Source: Sulfurimonas sp. (GTDB lineage Bacteria; Campylobacterota; Campylobacteria; Campylobacterales; Sulfurimonadaceae). Taken from it: DNA of 17,519 nucleotides. Below the pieces are notes generated by a model. That model was not told the origin of the DNA, ran no database searches, and saw only the letters and a program-made list of their open reading frames with translations. This document shows, piece after piece, positions 1,187 through 16,905 of this stretch. The translations under genes were made by a program, and so were the position numbers. The stretch is taken from positions 1-17,519 of the forward strand of contig JALUZQ010000253.1 of assembly GCA_027011725.1 (NCBI GenBank), given 5' to 3'. Position 1 is the stretch's first letter. Each line of letters begins with the position of its first letter.

Positions 1187-2152
1187 ATGCGCGTATTAAC
1201 CGGTATTCAGCCATCAGGTGATTTACATATTGGCAATTACTTTGGTTCTATCAAACAGATGGTAGATGCACAAAAAGACAACGACACTTTCGCTTTTATA
1301 GCCAATTACCACGCTATGAGCAGCGGTAACGGAGGAGCAAGACTCGCAGAGCTTACTATGCAGACAGCAACTGACTTTCTCTCACTCGGAATCGACCCTG
1401 AGAAATCAACTTTTTGGGTACAATCAGATGTAAAAGATGTGCTTGAGCTTTACTGGGTACTCTCTGCGTTTACCCCTATGGGACTCTTAGAGCGCGCACA
1501 CAGCTATAAAGACAAAGTAGCAAAAGGCATCTCTGCAAACCATTCACTCTTCTCTTATCCTGTTTTAATGGCTGCAGATATTTTACTCTACTCTCCCGAC
1601 ATCATCCCCGTTGGAAAAGACCAGATACAACACGTTGAAATTGCGCGTGATATCGCCATCAAGTTCAACAACGAATATGGAGAGGTCTTTAAACTTCCGG
1701 AGTTTAAAATAGAAGAAAATGTTGCCACAGTTCCCGGAACTGACGGACAGAAAATGTCAAAAAGTTACAAAAATACGGTCAATATTTTTGGCGAAGAGAA
1801 AAAACAACTCAAAACCATTAAAAAAATCGTCACTGAACCTGTACCACTTGAAGAACCGAAAGAGTATGAGAACTGTAATGTTTATAATATGGCAAAACTC
1901 TTTTTAAATGAAGATGAGTGTAAAGAGCTTCAAGCGCGTTATAAACGCGGTGGAGAGGGTCATGGACACTTCAAACTCTACCTGCATGAAGTCATTTGGG
2001 ACTATTTTGCACCATATAGAGAGAAGAGAGAGTACTACATGCAGCATCAAGATGAAGTGCGTGACATACTAAACGCAGGAGCACAAAAAGCTCAGACAAT
2101 AGCAACGCCACTGATAGAACAGATTCGTTCTCTTACAGGAATAAGATACTAA
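1187..2152 (+). CDS. trpS: Tryptophanyl-tRNA synthetase
   Basis: A 321-residue class I aminoacyl-tRNA synthetase that charges tRNA-Trp in the cytoplasm. It begins MRVLTGIQPSGDLHIGNYFG; the HIGH-type motif is HIGN at residues 14-17, and the KMSKS loop is KMSKS at 189-193 within GTDGQKMSKS. Both signatures and the length are normal for bacterial TrpRS. An in-frame ATG 39 bases upstream would add MGIIRAKKRGFFI, but a -10 promoter box lies between the two ATGs and GAGGA precedes the inner one by 9 bases, so 1187 is taken. The gene stands alone between divergent hpf and the convergent cytochrome gene, and its stop codon is in the terminator hairpin. No leader peptide or T-box-like structure was seen. 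Confidence 0.97.
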   Translation: MRVLTGIQPSGDLHIGNYFGSIKQMVDAQKDNDTFAFIANYHAMSSGNGGARLAELTMQTATDFLSLGIDPEKSTFWVQSDVKDVLELYWVLSAFTPMGLLERAHSYKDKVAKGISANHSLFSYPVLMAADILLYSPDIIPVGKDQIQHVEIARDIAIKFNNEYGEVFKLPEFKIEENVATVPGTDGQKMSKSYKNTVNIFGEEKKQLKTIKKIVTEPVPLEEPKEYENCNVYNMAKLFLNEDECKELQARYKRGGEGHGHFKLYLHEVIWDYFAPYREKREYYMQHQDEVRDILNAGAQKAQTIATPLIEQIRSLTGIRY

Positions 2153-2169
2153 AGAGTATCTTATTTTTT
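2140..2169 (+). terminator. Rho-independent terminator of trpS, overlapping both convergent stop codons
   Basis: AATAAGATACT (2140-2150) is followed by a 4-base loop AAAG and its exact complement AGTATCTTATT (2155-2165), then TTTT. This is a perfect 11-bp stem with a U-tract in the trpS direction. The trpS TAA starts in the left arm and the cytochrome gene's TAA lies in the right arm. In the minus direction the U-tract is only two bases, so termination of the cytochrome transcript here is less certain. Confidence 0.8.
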
Positions 2170-3351
2170 AAGTTTCAAAACCTTTGAGACTATAAACATC
2201 TTTTGAAAAAAGATAGCCTCTTTAAGATCTAAAAGGTCTCTCACCTCATCATTAACGAGACGATAATAAACCTTCACTTCTACGCTGTCTGCTCCTTTTA
2301 GTAGAGGCAGGCGCAAAATCTTTTTGCCATGTGCGGGAATGCTCATATCTGCACTCTGTTTACGCGCTAAATGTGCAGTTGATATTTTATTGCGTTTGCG
2401 TTTATATGTTCTTGTCAAAGAGATACTCTTCTCTTTGAGAACTTTTGTCCCTTTTTTATAGCTCACTTCCACTACAATCTCTCGTGAACCGTATCCACTC
2501 GGCAGGTTGTGCGGCTGAGGATTGTAGAGTTCTACTGTAAGCGTTCGCTTTGTAGCTTGGAGCTTTAACGCAAGTGCATTTCTCCACATTGATGCGAAAT
2601 GTGCCCCTTTGAAGCCATGATTACGTACCATTCTTTGGCGTGCTTTGCCATTGTACATTTTATACGTTGAGGCATAATCTTTATGTCTTTTTCCCATATG
2701 ACAATCAACACACTTTTTCTTACCCTTATATTCACTCTGCATATCGGTAAATACAAGACCACTCACACTTCTGTCATTTGCATGACAGACAAAGCAGAGC
2801 TTATTTGGATTGGTAGTCATAAACTCATGAGACTGCACTTTATGATACGGTGACTTTGCATCTTTAAAAGGCCCCGTCATAAGACCGTTCTTTGTCCACT
2901 CTACTCTATTGATACCGCGCTTTGTTTTGTCATACTCATCATGGATCTTATCGACATTGTGACATACAACACAGTTAATACCCTCACTAATTGCTTTGTC
3001 ATTGACTGCTTTTTCAACTTTTGAACCTTTTGCAAGTCCCATGACCGAAGCTATCTCATAATCTTCACCCGTTTTTGTCACAGAAATGCGCGGGTTATGG
3101 CAAGTCGCGCACTCCACTTTCACTGCGTTTAGACTACGGTGTGTTTTACGACTGACATACTCTAAACTCTTGCGAAAATACTCATCTTTTGCAAAATGAC
3201 TCTTTGCATGCCATGAATGACTCCACTCATCTACTATCCGCTTATGGCAGACCTTACATTTAAGAGATGATTCATATTTCTCACTGATTTTTACAACTTT
3301 CGCTCCAAAAAGTGAACTGAGTACCAATGTTATCAGTAAGAAAACTTTCAT
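2161..3351 (-). CDS. Periplasmic pentaheme cytochrome c
   Basis: A 396-residue secreted multiheme cytochrome. Residues 1-17 are a signal peptide. Five CxxCH haem-attachment sites follow at about residues 32 (CKVCH), 81 (CATCH), 127 (CVVCH), 186 (CFVCH) and 214 (CVDCH), with many extra His residues that can act as distal ligands. The arrangement is that of the cytochrome c554/c-prime-like multiheme family. Residues from about 255 onward contain no haem site and look beta-rich, with a HNLPSGYGSRE motif at 281-291 seen in other multiheme cytochromes. It should carry electrons in the periplasm; the partner is unknown. The ATG follows the argF stop by 3 bases, so it is probably co-translated with argF, an odd pairing. 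The 3' end lies in the terminator shared with trpS. Confidence 0.88.
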   Translation of the reverse strand: MKVFLLITLVLSSLFGAKVVKISEKYESSLKCKVCHKRIVDEWSHSWHAKSHFAKDEYFRKSLEYVSRKTHRSLNAVKVECATCHNPRISVTKTGEDYEIASVMGLAKGSKVEKAVNDKAISEGINCVVCHNVDKIHDEYDKTKRGINRVEWTKNGLMTGPFKDAKSPYHKVQSHEFMTTNPNKLCFVCHANDRSVSGLVFTDMQSEYKGKKKCVDCHMGKRHKDYASTYKMYNGKARQRMVRNHGFKGAHFASMWRNALALKLQATKRTLTVELYNPQPHNLPSGYGSREIVVEVSYKKGTKVLKEKSISLTRTYKRKRNKISTAHLARKQSADMSIPAHGKKILRLPLLKGADSVEVKVYYRLVNDEVRDLLDLKEAIFFQKMFIVSKVLKLKK

Positions 3352-3354
3352 CTC

Positions 3355-4278
3355 TTATCCCCTTTGTCTGTCAAGCCAGACCATAAGCCCTTTTTGAGCA
3401 TGCAGACGATTTTCCGCTTCAGAGAAGACAACATCAGCATGATTTTCCAAAAGTTCTTCGCTCACCTCTTGTCCTCGATATGCTGGCAGACAGTGCAGAA
3501 ACTTCGCATCTTTATCAGCAAGACACATCATCAGTCCATCAACCATAAAGCCTTCAAAGTCTTTAATGCGCTGCTCTTTTTCATCCTCTTGTCCCATAGA
3601 TGCCCAGGTATCAGTCGTCACGATTGTCGCACCGCGTACTGCCTCTTTCGGGTCATTCATCACTTTTATGACAGCACCGCTTGTCTTTGCAATATCAAGT
3701 GCATCACGAAGTACCGCTTCGTCCACTTCATACCCTTTTGGCGTTGCTATGCGCAGTTCAAACCCAAGTTTTGCAGCAAGCATCAGCCATGAGTTGGTCA
3801 TATTGTTTCCATCACCAATGTAAGCCACTACAGCATTTTCAGCCACTCCATACTCTATCATCGTCATATAGTCAGCCAAAAGCTGTACGGGATGGTAGGT
3901 ATCTGTCAAACCGTTGATGACAGGCACTTTTGAGTATTTTGCGAACTCCTCTATCATAGAGTGCTCAAAAGTTCTTATCATAACCATATCACACATAGAG
4001 GAGATAACGCGCGCCGTATCTTTTACAGGCTCGCCGCGTCCAAGATGAATATCTCTGTTTGAGAGAAAAAGGGCATGCCCTCCGAGTTGAAACATTCCGG
4101 TCTCAAAACTGACACGTGTACGTGTTGAGCTCTTCTCAAAAATCATAGCAAGCGTTTGCATCTCAAGTTCTTTCTTATAGACACCCGCTTTTAGATCTTT
4201 TTTTATCTCTAAACCCAGATCAATAATCTCTAAAATCTCTTCTTTGCTGTAGTCTTTGAGTGTTAAAAAATGTCTCAC
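3355..4278 (-). CDS. argF: Ornithine carbamoyltransferase
   Basis: A 307-residue enzyme of arginine synthesis that makes citrulline from ornithine and carbamoyl phosphate in the cytoplasm. Visible motifs are the carbamoyl-phosphate loop STRTR (51-55), HPVQ at 129-132 (family usually HPCQ or HPTQ), the ornithine loop D-T-W-A-SMGQ (223-230) and HCLPAYRG (262-269). The [10 protein letters not shown] stretch is typical of ornithine rather than aspartate carbamoyltransferase. The start codon is GTG, with AGGA 7 bases upstream. It is the promoter-proximal gene of a two-gene unit with the downstream multiheme cytochrome, and is separated from hemB by 52 bases that hold a candidate -10. The Val in HPVQ is a small departure and is not expected to abolish function. 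Confidence 0.95.
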
Positions 4279-4312
4279 AATAAATTCCTAAATCTTTGTT
4301 TTGTATATTCTA

Positions 4313-4318
4313 ACTATA
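4313..4318 (-). promoter_or_regulatory. Predicted -10 box for argF and the cytochrome gene
   Basis: Minus strand reads TATAGT, 34 bases before the argF GTG, in the 52-base spacer below hemB. It suggests argF has its own promoter rather than depending on hemB read-through. There is no recognisable ARG-box palindrome. Confidence 0.4.
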
Positions 4319-4330
4319 CTTTTCTTTAAA

Positions 4331-5305
4331 TTAACTTCTTTGGAGCATCGCTGCTACCTCTTTTGCATGATAAGAGATGATTATATCAGCTCCGGCACGT
4401 TTAAAGCCTATCATCGTCTCCATCACAACACGCTCATAATCTATGAGATCATTCATCCCTGCAAATTTAAGCATCGCATACTCGCCACTTACATTGTAAA
4501 CAGCCATCGGCAATGTCGTGCTATCTTTTATCTCTCTGACTATATCAAGGTATGCAAGAGCCGGTTTTACCATTAAGATGTCAGCACCCTGCGCTTCATC
4601 ACTAATGCTCTCTGCTATTGCTTCACGGCGGTTTGCAGGGTCCATTTGGTAACTTGCACGGTCTCCAAAGCTCGGCGTTGACTCTGCTACATCACGGAAT
4701 GGTCCGTAGTACCCGGAAGCAAATTTCGTTGAGTACGCCATTATAGGCAAGTTCTCAAACCCTGCTCTGTCAAGTGAAGTGCGAAGTGTCTCAATGATGC
4801 CATCCATCATTCCTGAGGGCGCTATCATATCTGCTCCCGCTTTTGCATGAATGATCGCCTGCTGCCCTGATATCTCAAGTGTCGCGTCATTGTTGACTGT
4901 TTCATGCTCTTCATCAATGATGCCGCAGTGCCCGTGGTCTGTGTACTCACAAAAACATAAATCGGTCACGACAAACATATCAGGATGTGCTTTTTTAATT
5001 TCACGCACAGCCGAAGCGATGATGCCATGCTCGCAAAGTGCATCACTTCCTATGGAGTCCTTCACATCAGGAATACCAAAAAGAATGATAGAGTAAAGCC
5101 CTAAACTTTTAAGGGTCTCACACTCTTTTATCGCTTCATCAATACTCATCTGATAGACACCCGGCATAGAAGCTACTTCTGTTTTTATTCCCTCACCGCT
5201 TCTTATAAAAAGTGGGTAGATAAAATCATCTACACTGACATGAGTCTCTCTTACAAGAGCACGCAGGTGCTTATTTAAACGAGTTCGACGAAATCTTTGA
5301 AACAT
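4331..5305 (-). CDS. hemB: Delta-aminolevulinic acid dehydratase (porphobilinogen synthase)
   Basis: A 324-residue enzyme that condenses two 5-aminolevulinate molecules to porphobilinogen, an early step in haem synthesis. It has the active-site lysines K194 (AYSTKFAS) and K247 (MVKPA). The cysteine-rich zinc site is [14 protein letters not shown], with C117, C119 and C127, so it is a zinc-dependent type rather than the Mg/Asp type. Length and motifs are full. The ATG at 5305 has AAGG about 8 bases upstream. It is divergent from ribA, the two genes sharing a 77-base spacer with overlapping -10 boxes. Haem demand fits the multiheme cytochrome and hemJ in the same window. Confidence 0.97.
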
Positions 5306-5336
5306 TTTTCAACCTTTATCTTTAGTAAATTTTCGC

Positions 5337-5343
5337 TATAATA
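5337..5343. promoter_or_regulatory. Overlapping divergent -10 boxes for ribA and hemB
   Basis: Plus strand reads TATAAT (5337-5342); the minus strand over almost the same bases reads TATTAT. The two divergent promoters therefore share DNA and probably cannot be occupied at the same time. The ribA leader would be about 35 bases with only a weak AAAG before its ATG; the hemB leader about 25 bases. No FMN riboswitch was recognised in this short leader. Confidence 0.45.
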
Positions 5344-5382
5344 TTTTCTTAACAAATATTTTACCCATTTAAAGATTAAAGA

Positions 5383-5955
5383 ATGAATATAGAAATTTCA
5401 GAAGTAGCAAATTTACCCTCAAGATTTGGTGATTTTCAAGTCAAAGCATTTAAAGAGGGACAAAAAGAACACCTTGTCATTATGGCAAAAGAGCTTGCAG
5501 ATGTTCCCGTTGTTCGTGTACACTCGGAGTGTTTGACGGGTGATGCCATAGGAAGTTTAAAGTGCGACTGCCGTGACCAGCTTGAGTATGGTCTGAAGAT
5601 GGCGAATGAAACAGGCGGTATGGTCATTTACCTGCGTCAAGAGGGGCGCGACATAGGACTGCTCAACAAAATCAACGCCTATGCCCTGCAGGACAAAGGG
5701 CTCAATACCGTAGAAGCGAACCACCAGCTCGGTTTTGCGGCAGATGAGAGAACCTACGAGGTTGTAACTTTTATTTTAAACTATTATAATATTAAAAAGA
5801 TAAAACTTTTAACGAACAACCCCGATAAAATAAACTCCATAAGCGGGGTGGAAATAGTAGAACGTATTCCCATTGTTATGGCAGCAAATGAGCATAACAA
5901 TGCTTACTTAAACGTCAAACGTGATGAAATGGGGCATATGCTTCCAAAGGATTAA
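5383..5955 (+). CDS. ribA: GTP cyclohydrolase II
   Basis: A 190-residue stand-alone RibA, which opens GTP and releases formate and pyrophosphate in the first step of riboflavin synthesis. The zinc ligands are C50, C61 and C63 (HSECLTGD and SLKCDCRD). The family motif YLRQEGRDIGL is at 83-93, Y100 follows in NKINAYALQD, and the DxR motif is D121-E-R123. The C-terminal LLTNNPDKI (142-150) is typical. There is no fused DHBP synthase (RibB) domain, so that activity must be encoded elsewhere. The ATG lacks a strong Shine-Dalgarno (TTAAAGA only). The following GGDEF-EAL gene starts 5 bases after the stop and is probably in the same transcript. Confidence 0.95.
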   Translation: MNIEISEVANLPSRFGDFQVKAFKEGQKEHLVIMAKELADVPVVRVHSECLTGDAIGSLKCDCRDQLEYGLKMANETGGMVIYLRQEGRDIGLLNKINAYALQDKGLNTVEANHQLGFAADERTYEVVTFILNYYNIKKIKLLTNNPDKINSISGVEIVERIPIVMAANEHNNAYLNVKRDEMGHMLPKD

Positions 5956-5960
5956 AATAG

Positions 5961-8072
5961 ATGCCGATTGATATAGAAAAAGATGATGTTGAAACTGCCC
6001 TACGCAAACTCAATGCTCGTGAGGGTAGTTTTCGACTCCTAGAACAGATCAATAAACTAGGAAGCTGGGAAGTTGACCTCAAAACACATAAGTCAATTTG
6101 GTCTGAGAACAGCTACCGTTTATATGATATAGAACCTTTTTCTATCGAGCCGACTTTAGAGTATTTTCTAAACCATCTTCTTCCTGAGTATCTCCCCCGA
6201 GCACAACAAAAAATAAAAGAACTCCTCGCTACACACGAAGCCCTTACCTTTCAAGGAAAGATCCGAAGTGAAACAGGGGTCGTTAAAGATATTCTCATCA
6301 ATGCTCAGGCTCTTTTTGATGCCAATGGCATCGCTCTCAAGCTCGTAGGAACTACACAGGACATCACAGCGAAGGTAAAACTAGAACAGAAATCTCAAGA
6401 ACTTAGTTCCATCATTGAGAACTCCGCGAGTGAAATCTATGTCGTTGACTATATGAATGACAAGTACCTTTATGTCAACAAAGCAGCATGTGATGCCCTT
6501 GGTTACACAAAAGAGGAGCTTTTAAAGCTCACTATATTTGATATAAATAAAGAGCTCACTCCTGAAATGGTCGAGCACTTAAAAAACAGCTATGAGATCA
6601 CAAAACGTCCTTATATTTCAAACCAAAGTATTCATACTCGAAAAGATGGGACAAGTTACCATGTACAGTCGCACATTCAAAAGATCTATTATGATTCCAA
6701 AGAGGCATATGTAATTTTTGACACGGATGTTACGCAAAATATTTTAGTCTCTGAGCTTGTTGAGAAACAATCCAAAATGCTCCAACATCAAGCCAATCAT
6801 GACCCATTGACAGACTTACCAAATAGAACACAATTCCAACAAAAGCTAAGTGATGCCATTGCAAATGCGAAAAAACATAATACGACCTTTGCTCTGTTCT
6901 TTCTCGACCTTGACCATTTTAAAGACATAAACGACTCTTTAGGGCATCATGTCGGAGATGTTGTACTCAAAGAGTTTGCAAAAAGACTCAAAGAGTCTAT
7001 TCGCCATGAAGATACGCTTGCAAGACTTGGCGGTGATGAGTTTACCATTATCTTACATAATATAGAGAAGCTGACCGATATCTCCACAGTGGCAAACAAA
7101 ATCATCACGGCAATGCAGACACCTATTCCAATAGCATCGAACGAACTCCATATTACAACAAGTATTGGTATCTCTATATATCCCGAACATGCACAGGACA
7201 AAAGTAACCTCTTAAAGTTTGCCGATACTGCAATGTATAAGGCCAAGGCAAAAGGCCGTAACACCTACCAGCTCTTCTCAGCGGGAATGTCCGCACATGC
7301 TTACAAAAGGGTCATTATGGAGAACTCTTTGCGTATCGCCATCAAAGAGGAACAATTCCGTGTCTATTACCAACCGCAGATAAACACCATTGATGAGCAG
7401 CTCAGAGGAATGGAAGCACTTGTACGTTGGAAACATCCGACTATGGGGCTCGTCTCTCCTATGGACTTTATTCCCCTCGCAGAAGAGCTTGGACTCATTG
7501 TCGAAATAGACCGCATAGTGATGAAACAGGCTATGAAGCAGTTTGCCCTCTGGTACAAGAACAGGCTCTACCCTGGAAAGCTCTCACTCAACCTTGCCAT
7601 GCAACAGCTGCATAAAAGTGATTTTAGCACTGTTTTGTTTGAGACAATGGCGCAGTGTGACTTTAAAAAAGAGTGGCTTGAACTTGAAGTGACCGAAACG
7701 CAGGTTATGAGTAACCCGGAACTCTCCATTAAAAGGCTCAAACAGATTCATGCAAATGGTATAGATATCTCAGTAGATGACTTTGGAACAGGCTACTCTT
7801 CGCTCTCATACCTCAAGAAACTTCCGCTCAGCAAGCTCAAAATAGACAAATCGTTCATCAATGATATTCCAAAAGATGAAGATGACATTGCCATTACAAA
7901 GGCTATTATTGCACTGGCAAAGAGTCTGAACCTTGGACTTATTGCAGAGGGTGTTGAAACGCAGGAGCAAAAAGAGTTTTTACTTGAAAACGGCTGTGAG
8001 TGCATACAGGGGTATCTCTACTCCAAACCACTGCCCGCTGATGAGATGACAAAGTTTTTACAGACCTTTTAG
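5961..8072 (+). CDS. PAS-PAS-GGDEF-EAL cyclic-di-GMP turnover protein
   Basis: A 703-residue soluble signalling protein with no membrane segment. Order: first PAS (about 28-135, starting LGSWEVDLKT), second PAS (about 145-262, with YLYVNKAACDALGYTKEEL), a short coiled linker, GGDEF (about 275-435) and EAL (about 450-700). The cyclase signature GGDEF (357-361) is intact, and an inhibitory I-site RHED (348-351, RxxD) precedes it by five residues. The EAL domain keeps EAL (485-487), N544, ELEVTE, DDFGTGYSS (606-614), K627, AEGVET (663 Glu) and QGYLYSKP, so both making and breaking c-di-GMP look possible. AAAGG 10 bases upstream supports the ATG. Its 3' end overlaps the convergent CZB gene by 15 bases. 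The PAS ligand cannot be told from sequence. Confidence 0.95.
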   Translation: MPIDIEKDDVETALRKLNAREGSFRLLEQINKLGSWEVDLKTHKSIWSENSYRLYDIEPFSIEPTLEYFLNHLLPEYLPRAQQKIKELLATHEALTFQGKIRSETGVVKDILINAQALFDANGIALKLVGTTQDITAKVKLEQKSQELSSIIENSASEIYVVDYMNDKYLYVNKAACDALGYTKEELLKLTIFDINKELTPEMVEHLKNSYEITKRPYISNQSIHTRKDGTSYHVQSHIQKIYYDSKEAYVIFDTDVTQNILVSELVEKQSKMLQHQANHDPLTDLPNRTQFQQKLSDAIANAKKHNTTFALFFLDLDHFKDINDSLGHHVGDVVLKEFAKRLKESIRHEDTLARLGGDEFTIILHNIEKLTDISTVANKIITAMQTPIPIASNELHITTSIGISIYPEHAQDKSNLLKFADTAMYKAKAKGRNTYQLFSAGMSAHAYKRVIMENSLRIAIKEEQFRVYYQPQINTIDEQLRGMEALVRWKHPTMGLVSPMDFIPLAEELGLIVEIDRIVMKQAMKQFALWYKNRLYPGKLSLNLAMQQLHKSDFSTVLFETMAQCDFKKEWLELEVTETQVMSNPELSIKRLKQIHANGIDISVDDFGTGYSSLSYLKKLPLSKLKIDKSFINDIPKDEDDIAITKAIIALAKSLNLGLIAEGVETQEQKEFLLENGCECIQGYLYSKPLPADEMTKFLQTF

Positions 8073-8615: not shown

Positions 8616-9179
8616 TTGAGACATCCAGAACCGATTTATCATGAAATCACACTTGATCCCAAACGATACATTGTCTCTAAAACAGATCCAAAAGGTATTA
8701 TTGAGTATGGAAATGACTACTTTGTAGAGATCTCCGGCTACTCAGAGAGCGAACTCATCGGACAACCCCACTCCATCATCAGACATCCTGATATGCCAAA
8801 GATTGTCTTTAAAATGATGTGGGACCGTATAAACAAAGCACAGAATATCATCGCTGTTGTCAAGAACCTTGCAAAGGATGGAAGTTTCTACTGGGTCGTG
8901 ACCGAGTTTGAACCCAAGGTCGACCCTATCACAAACGATATTATCTCACATACTGCGTTTAGAAAAGCAGCGCCAAGAGATGCCATAAAGACCATAGAAC
9001 CCATATATGCAAAACTTCTTGAAATAGAAGAAAAAGGCGGTATGGAAGCGAGTGAGAAGTATCTGCGCGGCTTTTTGGAAGAAAAAGGAATGACCTATGA
9101 TGAGTACATCGACGGTGTGGTCGGAAACAAAGGGATTTTTAAAATCTTTTTTACTATGATGAAAAAACTCTTCTCCTAA
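8616..9179 (+). CDS. PAS domain protein, Aer/CetB-type energy-taxis sensor
   Basis: A 187-residue single-domain protein. The PAS fold spans about residues 15-120, with SKTDPKGIIEYGNDYF, ISGYSESELIGQPHS, IIRHPDMP and VKNLAKDGSFYWV, the pattern of the FAD-binding PAS of Aer and of Campylobacter CetB. There is no methyl-accepting domain; the C-terminal 70 residues are helical and end in a hydrophobic, basic tail (IFKIFFTMMKKLFS) that may touch the membrane. It probably senses redox and works with a separate CetA-type transducer. The start is TTG at 8616, with AAAGGAG 5 bases upstream. An upstream in-frame TTG at 8589 directly abuts the -10 box and cannot be in the mRNA. The divergent CZB gene may belong to the same pathway. 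Confidence 0.85.
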   Translation: MRHPEPIYHEITLDPKRYIVSKTDPKGIIEYGNDYFVEISGYSESELIGQPHSIIRHPDMPKIVFKMMWDRINKAQNIIAVVKNLAKDGSFYWVVTEFEPKVDPITNDIISHTAFRKAAPRDAIKTIEPIYAKLLEIEEKGGMEASEKYLRGFLEEKGMTYDEYIDGVVGNKGIFKIFFTMMKKLFS

Positions 9180-9188: not shown

Positions 9189-9779
9189 TTGAACTTAAAA
9201 GATGCACTACAAAACGCAGCACTTGAGCTGCCTGAAAACTTTTTTGCAAATGTGCAAAAATATAAAGAGCACCTCCACAAATGGAACAAGATCCACAACC
9301 TCACCGGTGCAAAAGATGAAAACACGCTCAATAATTTCATTTATGACGCTGTCTACCCTGTCAAGTTTCTCCCTCAAGTGAACTCTTTAATGGACATAGG
9401 AACGGGCGCAGGATTTCCGGGAATGATGCTTGCCTTTGCACTGCCGCAAACACAGGTCACACTCGTAGAACCTCTAAGCAAACGGGCAAGTTTTTTGCAG
9501 TTCATCAAAGCAGACCTTGGGCTTGACAATGTTCGTGTAGTGAAAAAACGGGTCGAAGAGATGGATGCCGAGCACTTTGACCTCATCACTTCACGCGCCG
9601 TAACGGACACAAAAATGCTGCTCAAACTCAGCGAAAAATTCCGTGATGCCAACTCTAAACTGCTCTTTTACAAAGGCGAAAAGGTCTTCGATGAGATGAA
9701 TGATGTCACAGAAGGAATGGAGTATAAAATCATCGAAAAAGAAAACAGACACTACCTACTTCTAGGAGAAGAACTATGA
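9189..9779 (+). CDS. rsmG: 16S rRNA (guanine-N7) methyltransferase RsmG (GidB)
   Basis: A 196-residue SAM-dependent enzyme that methylates G527 of 16S rRNA. Motifs: [10 protein letters not shown] (about 31-40), the SAM-binding loop [15 protein letters not shown] (about 68-82), [12 protein letters not shown], and the later SRAV segment. The start codon is TTG, with AAGGA 6 bases upstream beginning inside the previous gene's stop. It begins an overlapping run: its last four bases (ATGA) are the start of the next gene. Length is normal to slightly short for the family. Confidence 0.94.
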
Positions 9780-10015: not shown

Positions 10016-10407
10016 TGCTCTTTTTTGGTCATAGATTTATAGAGAGTGAGAAGTTTTATCATGTTTTTGACATCGATGCCATCCTTACCACTCCACCTGC
10101 CTCTACACTCTATGTAGAATTTAGTGAAAGTAATTTAGACATCATCGACTATATGCAGCAAAACCAACTGCGTTTTGCACTCAAGGTCTCTAGCATCACC
10201 CAAGTCGTTTATGCTGCTGCACTAAACGCAGCCTATATTGTTGTGGAGAGTGATTTGGCAAAGAGTGCCCAAAGCATAGCCGAGAGCTACCTCTTTGATG
10301 CAAAAATACTTGCACACATCGAAAAAGAAGATGAAATAGAAGAGCTTGCCCTTTTAGGCATCGATGGAGTGATTTGTCCAAGTGCAGTTGTACGGGTAAA
10401 TGCTTAA
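10015..10407 (+). CDS. Conserved hypothetical alpha/beta protein
   Basis: A 130-residue soluble protein I do not recognise by function. It shows repeated beta-alpha units (TLYVEF, RFALKV, AAYIVVES, DAKILAHI, GIDGVICPS) with helices between, reminiscent of part of a TIM barrel or a small Rossmann-like fold. No catalytic motif is obvious and no signal peptide is present. Its ATG overlaps the preceding stop by one base (TAATG), placing it third in the rsmG unit. Its own TAA overlaps the convergent alr stop (TTAA, 10404-10407). The tight coupling suggests a conserved operon, but no role is assigned. Confidence 0.75.
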   Translation: MLFFGHRFIESEKFYHVFDIDAILTTPPASTLYVEFSESNLDIIDYMQQNQLRFALKVSSITQVVYAAALNAAYIVVESDLAKSAQSIAESYLFDAKILAHIEKEDEIEELALLGIDGVICPSAVVRVNA

Positions 10408-11426
10408 CCCTCTACTACACTGCGTTTGAGATAGCCTTTGAGTGAGGTAAGTATCTCATAACTGATGGTCTTTGCATATTTAGCTGCAACACGAGCATCA
10501 TTAAAGATCAAAAGCTCCTCTGCCTCACTTAAAAAAGAGCTGTTGTCCATTGAAATTCGCCCTGCTATATGAATATTTTGCGGTGTGACATACTCATTTG
10601 AGCAAGCACGTAAAAAACCATCTCCATATCCACAATCATAGTTACTTACGACACATTTTGCATCTGCTTTATAGGTCGCGCTGTACCCCACACATGCACC
10701 TGCGTTTAAGGTACGCGAAGAGAGTTTTCGTGCATAAAGGCTCAGTACCGGTTGGAGTTTTTCTTGCACCCCGTAGTCTTCGAGCTCCAAACAGCCATAG
10801 GCAGCTATGCCCACACGTGCCATATCATCTTCTAACCTTCCCTCCCGAAAGAGAGCTGCGGAGTTACAGGAGTGAAAACGCAAAGTTTCGAAATTATGCT
10901 CATTTGCAAGTGCTGTTGCCTCTTTTTTTATCTGCTCAAAGTTACTCTTTTGCAACTCATAAAATTCATTCTCTTCATCAGCCGAACTGTGATGCGTAAA
11001 AACGGCCTCAAGCTCTAAGCCCTGCGTTTGTATCATCCTAAACACAGTGCCAAGCTCATCCATCTCTACACCGTTTCTGTTCATGCCGCTGTTCACTTTT
11101 AACTCTACTTTTGTACCCTTTGCAAACTTCTCAATCTGTGCTGTGTCATTGATGGTGTAGCGTATCTTTTCACTTGGCACTTTTGGTATATCGGCAAGTA
11201 CCAAGATGTACTCAAAAAGATGCTCTATTGCCGCTGCTTCTGCGTTTGAGCGAACTACTACTTTAGTGATGCCATACTCCTGTGCGAGTTGTGCGATCTC
11301 CAAAAGTCCGTGTCCATAGGCATTATCCTTTAAAACAAGAGCAATTTTATCTTTGCCACAAGTGAGTTGCGCGATAATGTCAAGATTATTAAAAAAATGG
11401 GTTTTATTGAGAGTTATGTAAGCCAT
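10404..11426 (-). CDS. alr: Alanine racemase
   Basis: A 340-residue PLP enzyme that makes D-alanine for peptidoglycan. The PLP-binding lysine is K33 in VLKDNAYGHG. Later come HSCNSAA, the VGYSATYKA segment carrying the second catalytic Tyr, YGDGF and GRISMDNSSF. The C-terminal region after GRISMD is somewhat short, as in other epsilonproteobacterial enzymes. The open frame continues 48 codons further upstream, but that stretch lies antisense to the agmatine deiminase gene and is unlike Alr; MAYITLNKTHF at 11426 is the natural start. There is no Shine-Dalgarno before it, and a perfect TATAAT lies 6 bases upstream, so the mRNA is probably leaderless. It is divergent from agmatine deiminase and convergent with the rsmG unit. 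Confidence 0.94.
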   Translation of the reverse strand: MAYITLNKTHFFNNLDIIAQLTCGKDKIALVLKDNAYGHGLLEIAQLAQEYGITKVVVRSNAEAAAIEHLFEYILVLADIPKVPSEKIRYTINDTAQIEKFAKGTKVELKVNSGMNRNGVEMDELGTVFRMIQTQGLELEAVFTHHSSADEENEFYELQKSNFEQIKKEATALANEHNFETLRFHSCNSAALFREGRLEDDMARVGIAAYGCLELEDYGVQEKLQPVLSLYARKLSSRTLNAGACVGYSATYKADAKCVVSNYDCGYGDGFLRACSNEYVTPQNIHIAGRISMDNSSFLSEAEELLIFNDARVAAKYAKTISYEILTSLKGYLKRSVVEG

Positions 11427-11432
11427 GGGAGA

Positions 11433-11438: not shown

Positions 11439-11442
11439 CACT

Positions 11443-12429
11443 ATGTTTGGGCACAAAAAACTAATTGCAGAGTTTGAAAAACAATCTTTTACACAAATCA
11501 TCTTCCCCCATCCAAAAACAGACTGGGCAGAGTACTTGCAAGAGGCACAGGCAACATTTGTCAACATCATAAACGCAGTAAGGGCATTCCAACCCTGCCT
11601 TGTCGTTGCCTATGACATAAAAGCTGTACAAAAACACTTTAGCGACTTTACTAACCTACGTTTTGTGGAGTATGAAACCAATGATACTTGGGCGAGAGAC
11701 TGCTCAGCCCTGACAATCGAGAATAACGGCGAAAAAGAGCTGCTGGATTTTACTTTTAATGCGTGGGGAGGCAAATTTGCAGCAGAGAAAGACAACCTTT
11801 TAAGCCGCTCTATCGCAAAACACTACCCCTACCCACTTCACTCTACTAACTTTGTCCTTGAAGGCGGAGCAGTAGAGAGCAACGGTGCAGGAATACTCCT
11901 CACAACAACAGAGTGTATGCTCAATCCCAACAGAAACCCTGCTCTAAACGCAGCTCAGATCACACAAAAGCTCAAAGCGTTCTTCGGTCTAAAAGAGGTG
12001 TTATACCTTGAAAATGGCTACCTTGCAGGGGATGATACGGACTCACACATCGACACCCTTGCTCGTTTTATCTCACAAGATGCCATTATGTATGTCCAAT
12101 GTGAAAATAAAGATGATGAACATTATGAAGCACTCAGAACAATGGAGCAAGAGCTGAAAGAACTTGCACAAATACATAACTTTACACTCATTGCCCTGCC
12201 TATGAGCGATGCCCTCTACTTCGATGGAGAACGACTCCCTGCGACCTATGCAAACTTTTTGTTTGTGAATGGTGCAGTATTGGTTCCAACCTACAATATT
12301 GCGTCTGATACGAAAGCTCTCGCTGTTTTTCGTAAGAGTTTCCCTGAGAGAGAGATTATTCCCATTGATTGTTCAGTCCTTGTCCGACAACACGGTTCAC
12401 TGCATTGTGTGACGATGAATTTTAGTTAA
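11443..12429 (+). CDS. aguA: Agmatine deiminase
   Basis: A 328-residue enzyme of the peptidylarginine deiminase-like (PAD_porph) family that turns agmatine into N-carbamoylputrescine for polyamine synthesis. Conserved features are NDTWARDCSALT with the substrate Asp, the FNAWGGKF segment, VLEGGAVESNG, GYLAGDDTDSHIDTLARF with the catalytic His and Asp, and the catalytic Cys322 in HGSLHCVTMNF close to the C-terminus. The start is uncertain. ATG 11443 gives MFGHKKLIAEFEKQSF, typical of the family, with GGGAG 11 bases upstream. ATG 11425 would add six residues and overlap the alr start codon. A candidate -10 (GATAAT near 11373-11378) lies inside alr. N-carbamoylputrescine amidase is not in this window. 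Confidence 0.9.
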   Translation: MFGHKKLIAEFEKQSFTQIIFPHPKTDWAEYLQEAQATFVNIINAVRAFQPCLVVAYDIKAVQKHFSDFTNLRFVEYETNDTWARDCSALTIENNGEKELLDFTFNAWGGKFAAEKDNLLSRSIAKHYPYPLHSTNFVLEGGAVESNGAGILLTTTECMLNPNRNPALNAAQITQKLKAFFGLKEVLYLENGYLAGDDTDSHIDTLARFISQDAIMYVQCENKDDEHYEALRTMEQELKELAQIHNFTLIALPMSDALYFDGERLPATYANFLFVNGAVLVPTYNIASDTKALAVFRKSFPEREIIPIDCSVLVRQHGSLHCVTMNFS

Positions 12430-12471
12430 TAAAATAATATTAAGTAATAAAAAAGCCTAACTCATATACAA

Positions 12472-12477
12472 TATATT
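12472..12477 (+). promoter_or_regulatory. Predicted -10 box for the FIST-diguanylate cyclase pair
   Basis: TATATT lies 22 bases before the FIST ATG in the 70-base, AT-rich spacer after agmatine deiminase. It would give a leader of about 16 bases containing AAAAAGGA. Confidence 0.4.
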
Positions 12478-12499
12478 CTAAGTACAAAAAGGATTAATT

Positions 12500-13636
12500 A
12501 TGGAGTTAATACATGCATCGTATGAAAATGGAAGTTGGAACGAACCCCTAGATGGGTCAATGGACTCGGAGCGAACGCTGATTATCATCTTTTCTACATT
12601 TGATGCTGATGCAATGCAAGCTCCTCTTCAAGAGCTGCAAAAGACTTACCCATCTTCATATATCATAGGTGCGTCGACCGCAGGAAGTATCTACATGGAT
12701 ATGCTTGAAGAGAACAACTGTTCTGTAACCATCGCGAAGTTTAAGACTACAGATATGAAACTTGTTACAACATCCATCAAAGATATGCAAGAGTCGCATA
12801 ATGAAGGTACAAAACTCGCTACCAAACTCAAAGATGAAAATCTCAAACATGTTTTCATACTCAGCAATGGACTCCACACCAACGGTTCTGAACTTATTGA
12901 TGGCTTTAACGAAGTCTTTGAATCACAAGTGCCTACCAGCGGTGCACTTGCAGCCGATGAAGGAAAATTTGAATCGACTTGGGTCATTGTAGATGGGAAA
13001 ATTGACACACATGGCATTACAGCCCTCGGATTTTACGGAGAAGATATCCGTTACACGGCAAGTTCACAAGATGGCTTGGATATCTTTGGAATAGAGCGTC
13101 TGGTAACACGCTCTGAGGCAAATGTACTCTATGAACTTGATGGAAAACCCGCCCTTGAAATATACAAAAAATATCTCGGAGAGCAGGCAAAGAAACTCCC
13201 CTTAAGTGCCCTCTCCTTTCCTCTTTCTTTGATGACCGGTTCCAATGACAAGATCACCCGTACCATCATCGGAGTCGATTATGATGACAACTCTATGACC
13301 TTTGCCGGAGATATACCGGAGGGGAGTTATGTCTCATTTATGAAAGCAAATCTTGACAGAGTCATCGCCGGAGCAAATGAAGCTGCTACGGAGCTTTGTT
13401 TTAATGATTATGATGGTGAAAATATCCTCAGTATTGCCATCAGCTGTATTGGTCGAAAAGCAGTTTTAAAACAGCGTACGGAAGAGGAGCTTGAGAGTGT
13501 GTTAGAAGCCTTGCCAAAAAATACAATGCAAATAGGCATGTACTCCTTTGGAGAAATATCTCCGACACAGAACAGATGCTGTGAACTGCATAACCAAACT
13601 ATGACGCTCACAGCGATATGGGAAAAAGATGCATAA
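12500..13636 (+). CDS. FIST domain sensory protein
   Basis: A 378-residue soluble protein with FIST_N (about 20-200) and FIST_C (about 205-365). FIST domains are predicted small-ligand (often proposed amino-acid) sensors genetically tied to signalling proteins. Markers are YIIGASTAGSI (54-64), TSGALAADEGKF (146-157) and VLYELDGKPALEIYKKYLG (209-227). The C-terminus QIGMYSFGEISPTQNRCCELHNQTMTLTAI is the typical FIST ending with a Gly-x-x-S-x-GEI pattern. It has no signal peptide or membrane helix. AAAAAGGA 6 bases upstream gives a strong ribosome site. Its last eight bases overlap the following PAS-GGDEF gene, a strong sign that FIST is the input unit for that cyclase. Confidence 0.9.
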   Translation: MELIHASYENGSWNEPLDGSMDSERTLIIIFSTFDADAMQAPLQELQKTYPSSYIIGASTAGSIYMDMLEENNCSVTIAKFKTTDMKLVTTSIKDMQESHNEGTKLATKLKDENLKHVFILSNGLHTNGSELIDGFNEVFESQVPTSGALAADEGKFESTWVIVDGKIDTHGITALGFYGEDIRYTASSQDGLDIFGIERLVTRSEANVLYELDGKPALEIYKKYLGEQAKKLPLSALSFPLSLMTGSNDKITRTIIGVDYDDNSMTFAGDIPEGSYVSFMKANLDRVIAGANEAATELCFNDYDGENILSIAISCIGRKAVLKQRTEEELESVLEALPKNTMQIGMYSFGEISPTQNRCCELHNQTMTLTAIWEKDA

Positions 13637-14702
13637 ACTGCTGCAGAGGCAACTCAAAAAGAGCGGAGCCGTTGTCGATGAGAAGTTCTTAGCACTTGTC
13701 AATCAAGCATACATCGATGCCGATGAGGACAGAGAACTGCTTGAGCGCTCACTTGAGATCTCTTCACAAGAGATGCGTGAGCTCTATGAGAAGCTCCAAA
13801 AAAATGCAAAAGAGAAAATAAAACAGAGTGAGGACAGACTTAAACGACTGCTCTATGAGCTACGCACTCAATATTTTTTATATAGTTATAATACAAACTT
13901 TATAATTACAGATGTTAGTGACTCCATTGAAGATATTTTAGGGTACACTCCCAAAGAGGTTATCGGTACAAACTTTTCAAAATACTATACAACTGAAGAA
14001 ATTAATAAATTCTCTTTAAACCTTGCAAAAAAGACAATAGAGGGAGAAGAGACAAATTCTCGAATTGTCAGTATTTACTCTAAAGATGGCAAGGTTCATT
14101 ATCTTGAGGTCGATAGCTATCCTCTCCATGATAAAAATGGACATGTTATTGGAGCCGAAGGATTAGCAAAAGATATCACCCAGCAGTTTCTTTTACAACA
14201 AAAGCTCGACTACCTCTCCAACCATGACTCACTGACAGGTCTTTCAAATAGACACTCGCTTTACAACCAGCTCGACTACCTCATCAAAGATGCCAAAAGA
14301 CATCAACAATCCTTTGCTCTTTTTTACATCGATCTTGATAATTTTAAAGCTATTAACGACATACTTGGACATGATGAAGGAGACAAACTGCTTCAAGAGT
14401 TTGCACATCTGCTCAAAGCTCATGCCCGTGCAAATGACATCGTGGCGCGCATAGGAGGGGATGAGTTTATCCTTGTCTATACCGATATCAATGAGCAAAC
14501 AAGAGACACCCTTGCACAAAAACTTTTAGAGAGCATTAACAGTGAGATAACACCAAAATATAAAAAGTACAATCTCTCTGCAAGTATCGGAATAGCGACC
14601 TATCCACAAGATGGAACGAGTATGCACCAACTTTTAAAGAGTGCGGACAGTGCCATGTATAAGGTCAAACACAGCAGTAAAAACAGCTTTGCTAACTATT
14701 GA
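13629..14702 (+). CDS. Diguanylate cyclase with FIST-associated N-terminus and PAS domain
   Basis: A 357-residue soluble enzyme predicted to make cyclic-di-GMP. Residues 1-60 form a charged helical segment (RQLKK, AYIDADEDRELLERSLEISSQEM) of the kind that starts many kinases and cyclases encoded next to FIST genes. A coiled region follows (about 45-80), then PAS (about 82-190, with DILGYTPKEVIGTNF and the YSKDGKVHYLEV return strand) and GGDEF (about 192-355). GGDEF is intact at 276-280, preceded by the I-site RAND (267-270), so product inhibition is likely. No EAL or HD-GYP domain is present. It starts inside the end of the FIST gene, 8 bases of overlap, implying coupled translation. The two proteins probably form one complex. 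Confidence 0.93.
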   Translation: MHKLLQRQLKKSGAVVDEKFLALVNQAYIDADEDRELLERSLEISSQEMRELYEKLQKNAKEKIKQSEDRLKRLLYELRTQYFLYSYNTNFIITDVSDSIEDILGYTPKEVIGTNFSKYYTTEEINKFSLNLAKKTIEGEETNSRIVSIYSKDGKVHYLEVDSYPLHDKNGHVIGAEGLAKDITQQFLLQQKLDYLSNHDSLTGLSNRHSLYNQLDYLIKDAKRHQQSFALFYIDLDNFKAINDILGHDEGDKLLQEFAHLLKAHARANDIVARIGGDEFILVYTDINEQTRDTLAQKLLESINSEITPKYKKYNLSASIGIATYPQDGTSMHQLLKSADSAMYKVKHSSKNSFANY

Positions 14703-14710
14703 CAATACGA

Positions 14711-14848
14711 CTATTTCACTGTAGCGCTCTTTGTTGCGTTTGCATCTTGCATTTTGAGCATTGCACTGCCACTAATTATAAGGTAAGTCGCAAGTGCGAA
14801 ACCGAGTGCTATTAAAGTTATTCGTTTTATTTTTTCTATTTTATTCAT
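14711..14848 (-). CDS. Small single-pass membrane protein, 45 residues
   Basis: An open frame of 45 codons, MNKIEKIKRITLIALGFALA followed by TYLIISGSAMLKMQDANATK and SATVK, ending in TAG. It has a lysine/arginine-rich N-terminus (residues 2-9), one hydrophobic helix (about 10-30) and a short polar tail, the layout of a positive-inside single-span membrane protein. A perfect TATAAT stands 7 bases before the ATG with no Shine-Dalgarno, so it is probably a leaderless gene. It lies in the gap between the diguanylate cyclase (convergent, 8 bases away) and the copper-type receptor (divergent). I do not recognise the family. The alternative is a non-coding stretch, but the promoter, composition and fit to the gap argue for a gene. 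Confidence 0.6.
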   Translation of the reverse strand: MNKIEKIKRITLIALGFALATYLIISGSAMLKMQDANATKSATVK

Positions 14849-14855
14849 AGCTAGA

Positions 14856-14861
14856 ATTATA
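14856..14861 (-). promoter_or_regulatory. Predicted -10 box for the 45-residue membrane protein
   Basis: Minus strand reads TATAAT, then TCTAGCT, then ATG. The spacing predicts a transcript starting at or within a base or two of the start codon. A 7-N4-7 direct repeat begins 6 bases upstream of the box. Confidence 0.55.
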
Positions 14862-14867
14862 CAAACT

Positions 14868-14885
14868 TAACACTGTTGTAACACT
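14868..14885. promoter_or_regulatory. Tandem heptamer direct repeat, candidate OmpR/PhoB-type operator
   Basis: TAACACT (14868-14874), spacer GTTG, TAACACT (14879-14885). The 7-base repeats have an 11-base period, one helical turn, as in sites bound by OmpR/PhoB-family response regulators. On the minus strand the distal repeat falls where a -35 would be for the small membrane protein promoter, so an activator there is plausible. It also lies 44 bases before the TonB receptor start. The regulator is unknown. Confidence 0.4.
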
Positions 14886-14928
14886 TTTTTTATACCATTA
14901 GATTATACAAAAAACGGGAATCAAAAAT

Positions 14929-16905
14929 ATGAAAAAAACAATTTCACTTTCACTCATCACAATCTCCTCTCTCTTTGGCGCAGAGCTTACGCTCTCTCCT
15001 ATAGATGTCTCCTCAACTACCATTACAGAGGTAGCACAAAATGTAAAAACATCTGCCGATGTTGCTGAAGCACTCTCAAAGAGTGTTCCAAGTGTCGATA
15101 TGAGCCGTCGAAGCGGCATAGCAAATGACGTTCTCATCCGCGGGCAGAAACGGGATAATATCTCCGTAGAGGTCGATGGTACAAAAGTCTACGGAGCCTG
15201 CCCAAACAGAATGGACCCACCTGTCTCACATGTGCTTGCAAGCCAAATAGATACCATAGAGGTAACAGAAGGCCCTTATGATGTCACAACATATGGAACT
15301 ATGAGCGGTGGTATAAAAATCACTACAAAGCAACCAAGTAAAGAGCTTAAAGGCGAAATAAACGTCGGCTTTGGAGCATGGAACTACAAAAAATTTGGAG
15401 CAACTGTTACAGGTGGCAATGACATCATTCGACTTCTACTGAGTGCATCTCGTGAGTCAAGTGACCAATACGAAGATGGTAATGGACATACGCTTGCCGA
15501 GCAGGTGAAATACTCCAATGCCCCGGCAGGGAATAAATACCAAACGCAGTATGAAGATATGCAAGCCTATACTAAACAATCGGTTATGGCAAAAGCCTTT
15601 GTAAAAACTGCCGAGAATCAAGAGCTGCGTTTAAGTACAACGGCAAACAGAAGTGACAATGTGCTCTATGCCAACTCACCGATGGATGCCATCTTGGATG
15701 ATTCAAACATTTACAGTGTGGCGTATAACATCAAAAACATTTCAGACAAATACAAGAACATAAACTTAGAGTACTACTACTCAGACGTTGATCATCCTAT
15801 GAGTACAGAGTATAGAAACGCAGCACTCAATCCAATGAATAACAAGACAAACCATATGAAAACGAGTATGCAGGGTGTCAAACTCAAAAATGACTTTTAT
15901 ATTGAAACATATAAACTACTTGTGGGAGCAGATGCAAGTAAACGAACCTGGAAAGGTGAATATGTAAACAATGTCAGCGGCACTGTTTTAGGCAAAAGCA
16001 TAGACAATGCCCTCACCACAAACGCAGCGCTCTTTGCAACACTCGAGAAAAAATACGCTGCGTTTAACGTCAAACTCGGTGCGCGCTATGACCACTCAAA
16101 AGTACAAGATGATAATGCTGCACACCAATCAAACACCTATGATGCACTCAATGCAAACATCTTTACAACCTATGCACTGAGCTGTGCGAACAAACTCTTT
16201 GTAGGTGTTGGACAGGCTTCTCGTGTGCCTGATGGAAGAGAGCTCTACTTTATGAAAGGTGGCAATACCATCGGTACACCTGATTTGAAACAGACAACAA
16301 ACCAAGAAATAGATGCAGGATTTGAGACAAATAATGACTACTTTGACTTTAAAATAAAAGCTTTTTACTCAAAACTAAGCAACTACATCTATATAAACGC
16401 AGACAAAACTGCCAATGCTTTTGAAAATATCGATGCAACTGTCTATGGGGCAGAACTCAGTGGCACATACTACATCAATGATGACATAACACTCGATATG
16501 GGTGTATCATATAAACGTGGACAAAAAGATAAAGCTCTGGCAGGACAAAATGACAAAGACCTTGCAGATATGGCACCTCTACGCGGGAATATTGCGCTGA
16601 ACTATGAGTATGCGAACAACTCTCTAGCAAGCATTTCAGTTGAAGGGAGTGACGCATGGAGTCACTATGATGCAGACAATGGGGAACAGGCAATTGCCGG
16701 CTGGTCAGTACTGAATATGAAAATAAAACATGCCGTCAATAAAAAGTTTGACCTCACACTTGGAGCGAACAACCTCTTTGATGTAACATATGCAAAAAGT
16801 AATACCTATGCAGACCTTACACTCATCAGCGCAGGCGGCACTCAAAAACTACTGCTCAATGAACCGGGTCGCTACATCTATACCAACCTTGATTTTAAAT
16901 TCTAA
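14929..16905 (+). CDS. oprC: TonB-dependent outer-membrane receptor, OprC/NosA copper type
   Basis: A 658-residue receptor. Signal peptide at 1-18, a TonB-box-like LSPIDVSS near 22-29, a plug domain (about 40-140, with VLIRGQKRDNISVEVDG and IEVTEGPYDVTTYG), then a beta-barrel ending in LDFKF with a terminal Phe. In the plug, GACPNRMDPP holds C91-x3-M95, the CxxxM copper ligand pair of Pseudomonas OprC. H289-x-M291 in VDHPM matches the HxM pair, and M252 stands 39 residues before M291, as in the OprC Met286/Met325 pair. Copper is therefore the best substrate guess, perhaps for nitrous oxide reductase or oxidases. GGGA lies 9-12 bases before the ATG; the promoter is unclear (TATAC-like stretches at 14891 and 14904). 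Divergent from the small membrane protein. Confidence 0.85.
   Translation: MKKTISLSLITISSLFGAELTLSPIDVSSTTITEVAQNVKTSADVAEALSKSVPSVDMSRRSGIANDVLIRGQKRDNISVEVDGTKVYGACPNRMDPPVSHVLASQIDTIEVTEGPYDVTTYGTMSGGIKITTKQPSKELKGEINVGFGAWNYKKFGATVTGGNDIIRLLLSASRESSDQYEDGNGHTLAEQVKYSNAPAGNKYQTQYEDMQAYTKQSVMAKAFVKTAENQELRLSTTANRSDNVLYANSPMDAILDDSNIYSVAYNIKNISDKYKNINLEYYYSDVDHPMSTEYRNAALNPMNNKTNHMKTSMQGVKLKNDFYIETYKLLVGADASKRTWKGEYVNNVSGTVLGKSIDNALTTNAALFATLEKKYAAFNVKLGARYDHSKVQDDNAAHQSNTYDALNANIFTTYALSCANKLFVGVGQASRVPDGRELYFMKGGNTIGTPDLKQTTNQEIDAGFETNNDYFDFKIKAFYSKLSNYIYINADKTANAFENIDATVYGAELSGTYYINDDITLDMGVSYKRGQKDKALAGQNDKDLADMAPLRGNIALNYEYANNSLASISVEGSDAWSHYDADNGEQAIAGWSVLNMKIKHAVNKKFDLTLGANNLFDVTYAKSNTYADLTLISAGGTQKLLLNEPGRYIYTNLDFKF

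Follow-up and report, generated by a model that had tools for sequence, protein, structure and literature searches.

The octamer AAACGCAG is probably a DNA uptake signal, a mark of self-recognition, in part of the genus Sulfurimonas. It was followed from a 17,519-nucleotide stretch of a Sulfurimonas sp. genome (assembly GCA_027011725.1, contig JALUZQ010000253.1, positions 1 to 17,519; here called the window) to that genome as a whole and to the 135 genomes of the genus. We infer this function from an excess at the level of DNA, neutrality with respect to strand, clade-specific variants, and the replacement of one word by another, which together fit the uptake dialects of the Neisseriaceae better than they fit Chi sites, replication-strand polarity marks, or codon effects. 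A sequence-only reading of the window had offered an uptake signal or a methylation or protein-binding site. The first of these leads, having survived the counts and shuffles described below, and the second stays as its rival.

Excess of AAACGCAG in the window and in its genome

The window contains 21 exact copies of AAACGCAG, 11 on the plus strand and 10 on the minus strand, which span positions 1464 to 16402. The same count had been made from the sequence alone against an expectation near 0.5, and 200 dinucleotide-preserving shuffles of the window gave a mean of 0.65 copies and a maximum of 4. The final G is nearly fixed, as had been claimed: AAACGCA followed by another base occurs four times, every time as AAACGCAA, and each one-letter variant of the octamer is present in at most 4 copies. 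All 21 copies lie within open reading frames (ORFs) called by a simple longest-ORF script. Synonymous-codon shuffles, in which codons are permuted among the genes of a sample so that proteins and codon usage are preserved, left a mean of 1.36 copies and a maximum of 6 in the 18 ORFs of the window (n = 200).

The genome to which the window belongs (G000) is a 67.6%-complete metagenome-assembled genome (MAG) of 1,416,224 bases in 279 contigs. It contains 1,087 copies of AAACGCAG (521 forward and 566 reverse) versus 29 copies (10 and 19) of the reversed word that served as control, a density of 0.77 per kb or ∼37 times the control. The genome-wide comparison with a Markov model that the sequence-only reading had proposed was run on a 186,162-base sample. 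There, AAACGCAG ranked first among octamers by order-3 Markov score (166 copies versus 12.9 expected; score of 42.7), and the best listed octamer that shares no hexamer with it scored 8.9. Sampled genes of G000 contained 137 copies versus 12.1 (standard deviation [SD], 3.5) after synonymous-codon shuffling, an ∼11-fold excess. The word is therefore not accounted for by the usage of codons or peptides, as had been argued from the window. Equivalent results were obtained for G193 (175 versus 13.5; SD, 3.2) and G104 (26 versus 2.3).

AAACGCAG is not a palindrome, its reverse complement being CTGCGTTT. With GC skew as a proxy for replication direction, its strand use is even in G000 (66:64), G193 (105:101), and G085 (35:27). 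This neutrality agrees with the earlier argument that near-equal strand use speaks against a polarity like that of Chi or of the FtsK-orienting polar sequences (KOPS). Within genes, the sense orientation is more frequent than the antisense (84 versus 53 in G000, P = 0.010; 107 versus 68 in G193, P = 0.004), and the favored reading frames are sense frame 2 and antisense frame 1. At 146 sites in G000, a pyrimidine precedes the word in 90% and follows it in 77%, with a weak G next, approximately Y-AAACGCAG-Y. At 184 sites in G193, C follows the word in 49%, and there is little preference on the 5′ side. Flanks are thus hardly conserved, which rules out a dispersed mobile repeat.

HemB is 87 to 91% identical in the nearest Sulfurimonas records. 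Among these is the syntenic stretch L013 (STC_122), which carries 18 copies of AAACGCAG in 19.9 kb. The copies in the window, with those also found in L013, are as follows.

Copy 1, 1464..1471, minus strand: W/Y-type tRNA synthetase gene, read as trpS
Copy 2, 2071..2078, plus strand: same trpS-like gene as copy 1
Copy 3, 3123..3130, minus strand: multihaem cytochrome-like gene; also in L013
Copy 4, 7696..7703, plus strand: PAS-GGDEF-EAL gene
Copy 5, 7957..7964, plus strand: PAS-GGDEF-EAL gene; also in L013
Copy 6, 8953..8960, minus strand: ORF 8589-9179; also in L013
Copy 7, 9212..9219, plus strand: rsmG/gidB
Copy 8, 10168..10175, minus strand: ORF 10015-10407
Copy 9, 10224..10231, plus strand: inverted pair with copy 8 at 56 bp
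Copy 10, 10420..10427, minus strand: alanine racemase gene
Copy 11, 10700..10707, minus strand: alanine racemase gene
Copy 12, 11022..11029, minus strand: alanine racemase gene
Copy 13, 11240..11247, minus strand: alanine racemase gene
Copy 14, 11571..11578, plus strand: PAD_porph/agmatine deiminase-like gene
Copy 15, 11946..11953, plus strand: PAD_porph gene
Copy 16, 15542..15549, plus strand: TonB-dependent receptor gene
Copy 17, 15625..15632, minus strand: TonB-dependent receptor gene; also in L013
Copy 18, 15816..15823, plus strand: TonB-dependent receptor gene
Copy 19, 16020..16027, plus strand: inverted pair with copy 20 at 38 bp
Copy 20, 16058..16065, minus strand: TonB-dependent receptor gene
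Copy 21, 16395..16402, plus strand: TonB-dependent receptor gene

The uneven spacing remarked on in the sequence-only reading is real: copies are absent from 3131 to 7695 and from 11954 to 15541, and a pair of gaps so large has a probability of 0.00065 for 21 uniformly placed sites. The second gap encloses a FIST-domain gene and a PAS-GGDEF cyclase gene (12500-14702), neither of which contains a copy. This pair does not align in the syntenic stretches L013 or L020. The alignments around it end at 12423 (L013) and 11426 (L020) and restart at 15095 and 15021, respectively, and just ∼0.4 kb separates the flanking alignments in both relatives. The suggestion that gaps mark recently acquired DNA therefore suits the FIST-cyclase gap. 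It suits the first gap, over argF-hemB-ribA, less well, since this gap is not conserved and linear mapping of the alignment places two L013 copies within it. For the same reason, we rejected slowly converting DNA as an account of the first gap.

Distribution of the words and retention of sites

Genomes were classed as bearing a word when its count was 100 or more and no less than four times that of the control, the palindrome TACATGTA being judged by its forward count alone; these cut-offs were chosen after the counts had been seen, and the counts were sorted by hand. AAACGCAG is borne by 29 of the 135 genomes of the genus and by none of 93 genomes of the family outside it. The counts reach 2,331 in G193, 1,822 in G194, 1,698 in G121, 1,450 in G104, 1,367 in G170, 1,344 in G159, and 1,207 in G157. 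The variant AAACGC[C/G]A alone adds three bearers (G145, G175, and G177) and exceeds AAACGCAG in some genomes, such as G085 (1,030; control, 109) and G168 (768; control, 25). G101, with a low total, is unlike the bearers in that its copies are skewed in strand (111 forward and 30 reverse), perhaps reflecting a local repeat.

The variants follow phylogeny in a tree of the type II secretion system (T2SS) proteins GspD, GspE, and GspF from 19 genomes, which cannot separate gain from loss. Clade A (G157, G159, and G000; support 100/100, starred) uses AAACGCAG, and its sister is the AAACGC-free genome G115 (100/99). Clade B (G121, G104, G193, and G194; 100/100, starred) uses AAACGCA[A/G], with AAACGC[C/G]A at 1.8 to 2.8 times the control, below the cut-off; in the tree, clade B joins AAACGC-free G130 in a group that is not starred (94/88). 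Clade C (99/98, starred) mixes AAACGCAG and AAACGC[C/G]A, which number 409 and 1,030 in G085, 370 and 566 in G133, 549 and 287 in G114, and 566 and 562 in G203. The core AAACGC is common to all three clades, and the tree requires a minimum of two transitions between genomes high in AAACGCAG (>1,000 copies) and genomes not high in it.

In place of AAACGCAG, the sister of clade A bears another nonpalindromic word, CCACATGC, which was detected de novo in 20 kb of G115 (11 copies versus 0.4 expected). Genome-wide, CCACATGC numbers 1,113 in G115 (control, 20), 1,564 in G151 (control, 12), and 1,495 in G118 (control, 24), and 18 of the 135 genomes bear it, including G134, G146, and G108. In stretch L259 of G115, all 11 copies are preceded by T and 8 of the 11 are followed by CA; 10 copies are genic versus 2.3 in synonymous shuffles. 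A third word, the palindrome TACATGTA, is borne by 24 of the 135 genomes, among them G107 (848; control, 57) and G103 (737; control, 32). It is also strongly over-represented in G088, G095, G099, G086, and G092 and in stretches L025, L033, and L018. Often followed by A or G and mostly genic in many Sulfurimonas, TACATGTA exceeds synonymous shuffles within genes (34 versus 2.7 in G095; 36 versus 6.1 in G099). High counts are found beyond the genus as well, in other genera of the family, where one genome reaches 1,768 copies. Of the 12 copies in the Sulfurospirillum stretch L033, 5 lie between genes (1.1 expected).

Altogether, 73 of the 135 genomes bear one of the three words, and the words are largely exclusive. 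At the cut-off, by a test that ignores phylogeny, no genome bears both an AAACGC word and TACATGTA (5.7 expected) or both an AAACGC word and CCACATGC (4.3 expected), and one genome, G215, bears both TACATGTA and CCACATGC (3.2 expected). Below the cut-off, CCACATGC is raised in the TACATGTA bearers G088 (85 versus 10) and G099 (71 versus 11), so that these ACATG-containing words are perhaps two forms of a single word. None of this could be seen from the window; the uptake idea first formed there stands as the lead, to which the words of the sister genomes have been added.

Sharing of sites was measured in syntenic regions, with other 8-mers of equal GC content giving the expectation. Sister bearers retain sites: 9 of 12 are shared between G104 and G194 (4.1 expected), 6 of 9 between G193 and G104 (1.4 expected), 6 of 8 between G193 and G194 (1.8 expected), 7 of 14 between G157 and G159 (1.5 expected), and 4 of 21 between the window and L013 (1.3 expected), with a weaker result for G193 and G121 (3 of 11; 1.2 expected). 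Clades A and B share 0 to 2 sites per pair. When six genomes of clades A and B were set against eight AAACGC-free genomes, one of 315 nonindependent comparisons showed a shared site versus 17.8 expected. This sum omits clade C genomes G085, G114, and G133, toward which 5 sites are shared over 18 pairings. The retention among bearers and near-absence in AAACGC-free genomes indicate that sites arose and are held within the bearing lineages.

One 20-kb stretch of the second contig of G085 (82 kb; plasmid or foreign) contains neither AAACGC[C/G]A nor AAACGCAG, whereas the first contig predicts 7.7 and 2.8 copies; for the looser AACGC[C/G]A, 4 copies were counted versus 15.9 expected. A scarcity of copies in foreign or mobile DNA, to which this stretch and the copy-free FIST-GGDEF pair may point, would fit an uptake signal. 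One-mismatch words, scored as their excess for each exact copy in 19 of 34 genomes, gave high values for G109 (1.95) and G117 (4.49) and low values for G000, G157, G159, G170, and G171 (−0.11 to 0.46). A decay of sites where the pilus is lost is only suggested by these values, because mixed-dialect clade C genomes raise the excess too (1.33 in G114 and 1.38 in G203).

Other repeated words also came to light. AGATTCCA/TGGAATCT occurs 19 times versus 1.4 expected in 21 kb of Helicobacter turcicus (L050), possibly another iterated word of the Campylobacterota, and TATCATGA/TCATGATA 22 times versus 1.4 in 11.6 kb of a Sulfurospirillum MAG (L023). A AATGACTTCG-like word present in 11 to 12 copies in the first 20 kb of the second contig of G085 (L104) may represent iterons or a repeat array, and stretches L228 to L232 of G092 contain a GTGCCTGACACC-like repeat, with ∼11 copies in 100 kb. 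No strong word was found in the de novo samples of G093 and G218.

Uptake machinery and rival explanations

Competence genes are present in the genus. ComEC was matched in 123 of the 135 genomes; among the 79 good genomes, 78 have a match. G000 has one too, and its comEC shares a contig with priA and two pilin genes. A locus in G157 encodes two PilN/PilO-like proteins (our own reading, with no NCBIfam match), a 149-amino-acid (aa) protein, a secretin (MshL model, 273 bits; cut-off, 250), an AAA ATPase, a PilB/GspE-like ATPase, and a GspF-like protein. By order alone, this locus resembles Campylobacter jejuni ctsR-D-P-X-E as ordered by locus tag (PMC8308473). G193 has part of such a locus, a secretin with ATPase neighbors.

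We propose that AAACGCAG would identify DNA as self during natural transformation. A receptor selective for sequence, probably part of a type IV pilus-like (Msh/Cts-type) machine that feeds ComEC, would prefer word-bearing DNA. Fragments with chance copies would be taken up and recombined more often. By this molecular drive, the word would build up throughout the genome, on either strand, at positions where the encoded proteins allow it. A shift in receptor preference would shift the word, yielding AAACGCAG, AAACGCA[A/G], or mixtures with AAACGC[C/G]A according to clade and perhaps TACATGTA and CCACATGC elsewhere, in which case all three words would do one job.

Several results weigh against this proposal. 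ComEC was not matched in the AAACGC bearers G117, G127, G167, and G177 (82, 73, 90, and 54% complete, respectively) or in the CCACATGC bearer G216 (99%), the sole good genome without a match. Three bearers seem to lack genes for pilus assembly: in G109 (99% complete, 361 copies), neither a secretin nor a long assembly ATPase was found, and there is a single pilin-type match; a long assembly ATPase is missing from G168 (89%, 294 copies) too; and G117 (82%, 146 copies) has just weak T2SSE matches and almost no pilus ATPase. In G000, at 67.6% completeness, the Msh/Cts secretin was not found, and the one secretin detected lies beside GspE. Uptake genes also fail to predict the word, because wordless genomes have them too. 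AAACGCAG is not enriched between genes (9 intergenic copies versus 9.3 expected in G000 and 7 versus 16.2 in G193), and inverted pairs with <60 bp between them number only 5 in G000 and 7 in G193. TACATGTA is a palindrome, which known uptake sequences are not. Furthermore, AAACGCAG does not avoid genes, unlike the uptake signal sequence (USS) of the Pasteurellaceae, whose copies are 47 to 70% genic versus 84 to 89% coding sequence (PMC2346458).

The search for a receptor was likewise negative. The priA-adjacent pilins were rejected as candidates, since those of nine genomes, compared by eye, do not sort by word. A cluster of pilin genes with a ∼620-aa secretin gene was considered as a system that tracks the motif, but gene by gene it proved in G193 to be a T2SS, and its link to the word was dropped because wordless genomes have a T2SS as well. 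The apparent lack of an Msh/Cts secretin in G159 probably reflects a break in the assembly, because a long assembly ATPase sits close to the end of a contig (C6:395-1540). In G212, the secretin and T2SSE-type ATPase genes on C82 and C23 appear to be broken by several stop codons.

The main rival, which we consider unlikely, is a chromosome-wide site for methylation or protein binding (an orphan methyltransferase, a nucleoid protein, or a segregation factor) that resembles the highly iterated palindrome HIP1 and is unrelated to uptake. Clade-specific words would follow from differing recognition specificities, the palindrome TACATGTA is HIP-like, and both the second replicon of G085 without the word and the persistence of the word in G109 fit. 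On the other side, AAACGCAG and CCACATGC are not palindromes, and restriction targets are usually avoided rather than enriched. The copy number and genic spread, moreover, need a process that creates sites, which biased uptake would supply and binding would not readily.

Less likely still is a Chi-like signal, a word that makes the AddAB/RecBCD nuclease stop and sets off repair, its recognition differing between clades. Chi sites are one of the named classes of over-represented oligomers (PMC4390886). AAACGCAG is short, nonpalindromic, and genome-wide, as such a signal would be, and its persistence in G109, which seems to lack pilus assembly genes, would fit. However, known Chi sites tend to a leading-strand bias, and none was seen relative to GC skew in G000, G193, or G085. 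The 11-fold excess over synonymous shuffles is also larger than any known for Chi.

Replication-strand polarity marks such as KOPS or architecture imparting sequences (AIMS) would be genome-wide octamers too, but the near-equal use of strands, both overall (521:566) and relative to GC skew, makes them highly improbable. The almost exclusively genic location and favored frames might point to the usage of codons, codon pairs, or peptides or to a family of dispersed repeats. This explanation has next to no probability, being contradicted, as far as codons and repeats are concerned, by the synonymous shuffles (12 copies versus 137), the 53 antisense copies among 137 genic ones in G000, the hardly conserved flanks, and the near-absence of AAACGCAG from genomes with homologous proteins.

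Relation to known signals

The DNA uptake sequence (DUS) of the Neisseriaceae occurs in eight dialects with a shared three-base core (PMC3630211). Like it, the AAACGCAG family consists of a short word in hundreds to thousands of copies, with variants that follow phylogeny and an invariant core, here AAACGC. Unlike the DUS, it shares its genus with words of an unrelated ACATG-containing core and is not enriched between genes. A receptor of the ComP type, as used with the DUS, was not recognized; the two pilins of G000 match generic pilin models only. The USS is similar in its short core, its hundreds to thousands of copies, and its unequal orientations within genes (PMC2346458), and the minor pilin ComN is its predicted receptor (PMC12616744). 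In 186,162 bases of G000, the canonical DUS GCCGTCTGAA and the USS word AAGTGCGGT are absent and the USS word ACAAGCGGT occurs once. By sequence, therefore, AAACGCAG does not appear to belong to the DUS and USS families proper.

Self-recognition at uptake has a precedent by other means in the same phylum, where C. jejuni discriminates self DNA through a methylated site (PMC8468864). That system (CtsM; RATTY as printed) recognizes methylation at a short site that occurs frequently, whereas AAACGCAG is itself a strongly over-represented word of eight bases. HIP1 of the cyanobacteria is a palindrome tied to methyltransferases (PMC4390886); AAACGCAG resembles it as an octamer over-represented genome-wide and differs in not being a palindrome, and TACATGTA of the relatives is closer to HIP1 in form. 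A 2016 review assigns sequence-specific uptake to species of two families, the Pasteurellaceae and Neisseriaceae (PMC5031613). In the literature searched, which left most subscription papers aside, no such signal is described for Sulfurimonas, and no paper joins "DNA uptake sequence" with "Sulfurimonas."

With confidence only slightly better than even, we propose that the Sulfurimonadaceae are an independent third lineage of sequence-specific uptake. A single genus would use at least two unrelated cores (AAACGC and ACATG) in largely exclusive dialects (AAACGCAG/AAACGCA[AG]/AAACGC[CG]A; TACATGTA; CCACATGC). Recognition would thus have changed several times between closely related genomes, and it may divide free-living bacteria into separate groups for gene exchange. 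If the proposal is correct, a third, unrelated case in free-living sulfur oxidizers, which have many sequenced relatives, would be a natural experiment on how such signals originate, spread, and give way to one another. The 18 to 32 bearing genomes per word would then allow the receptor to be sought by covariation. The words would also show which Sulfurimonas are able to exchange genes and suggest a route for the delivery of DNA to this ecologically important genus.

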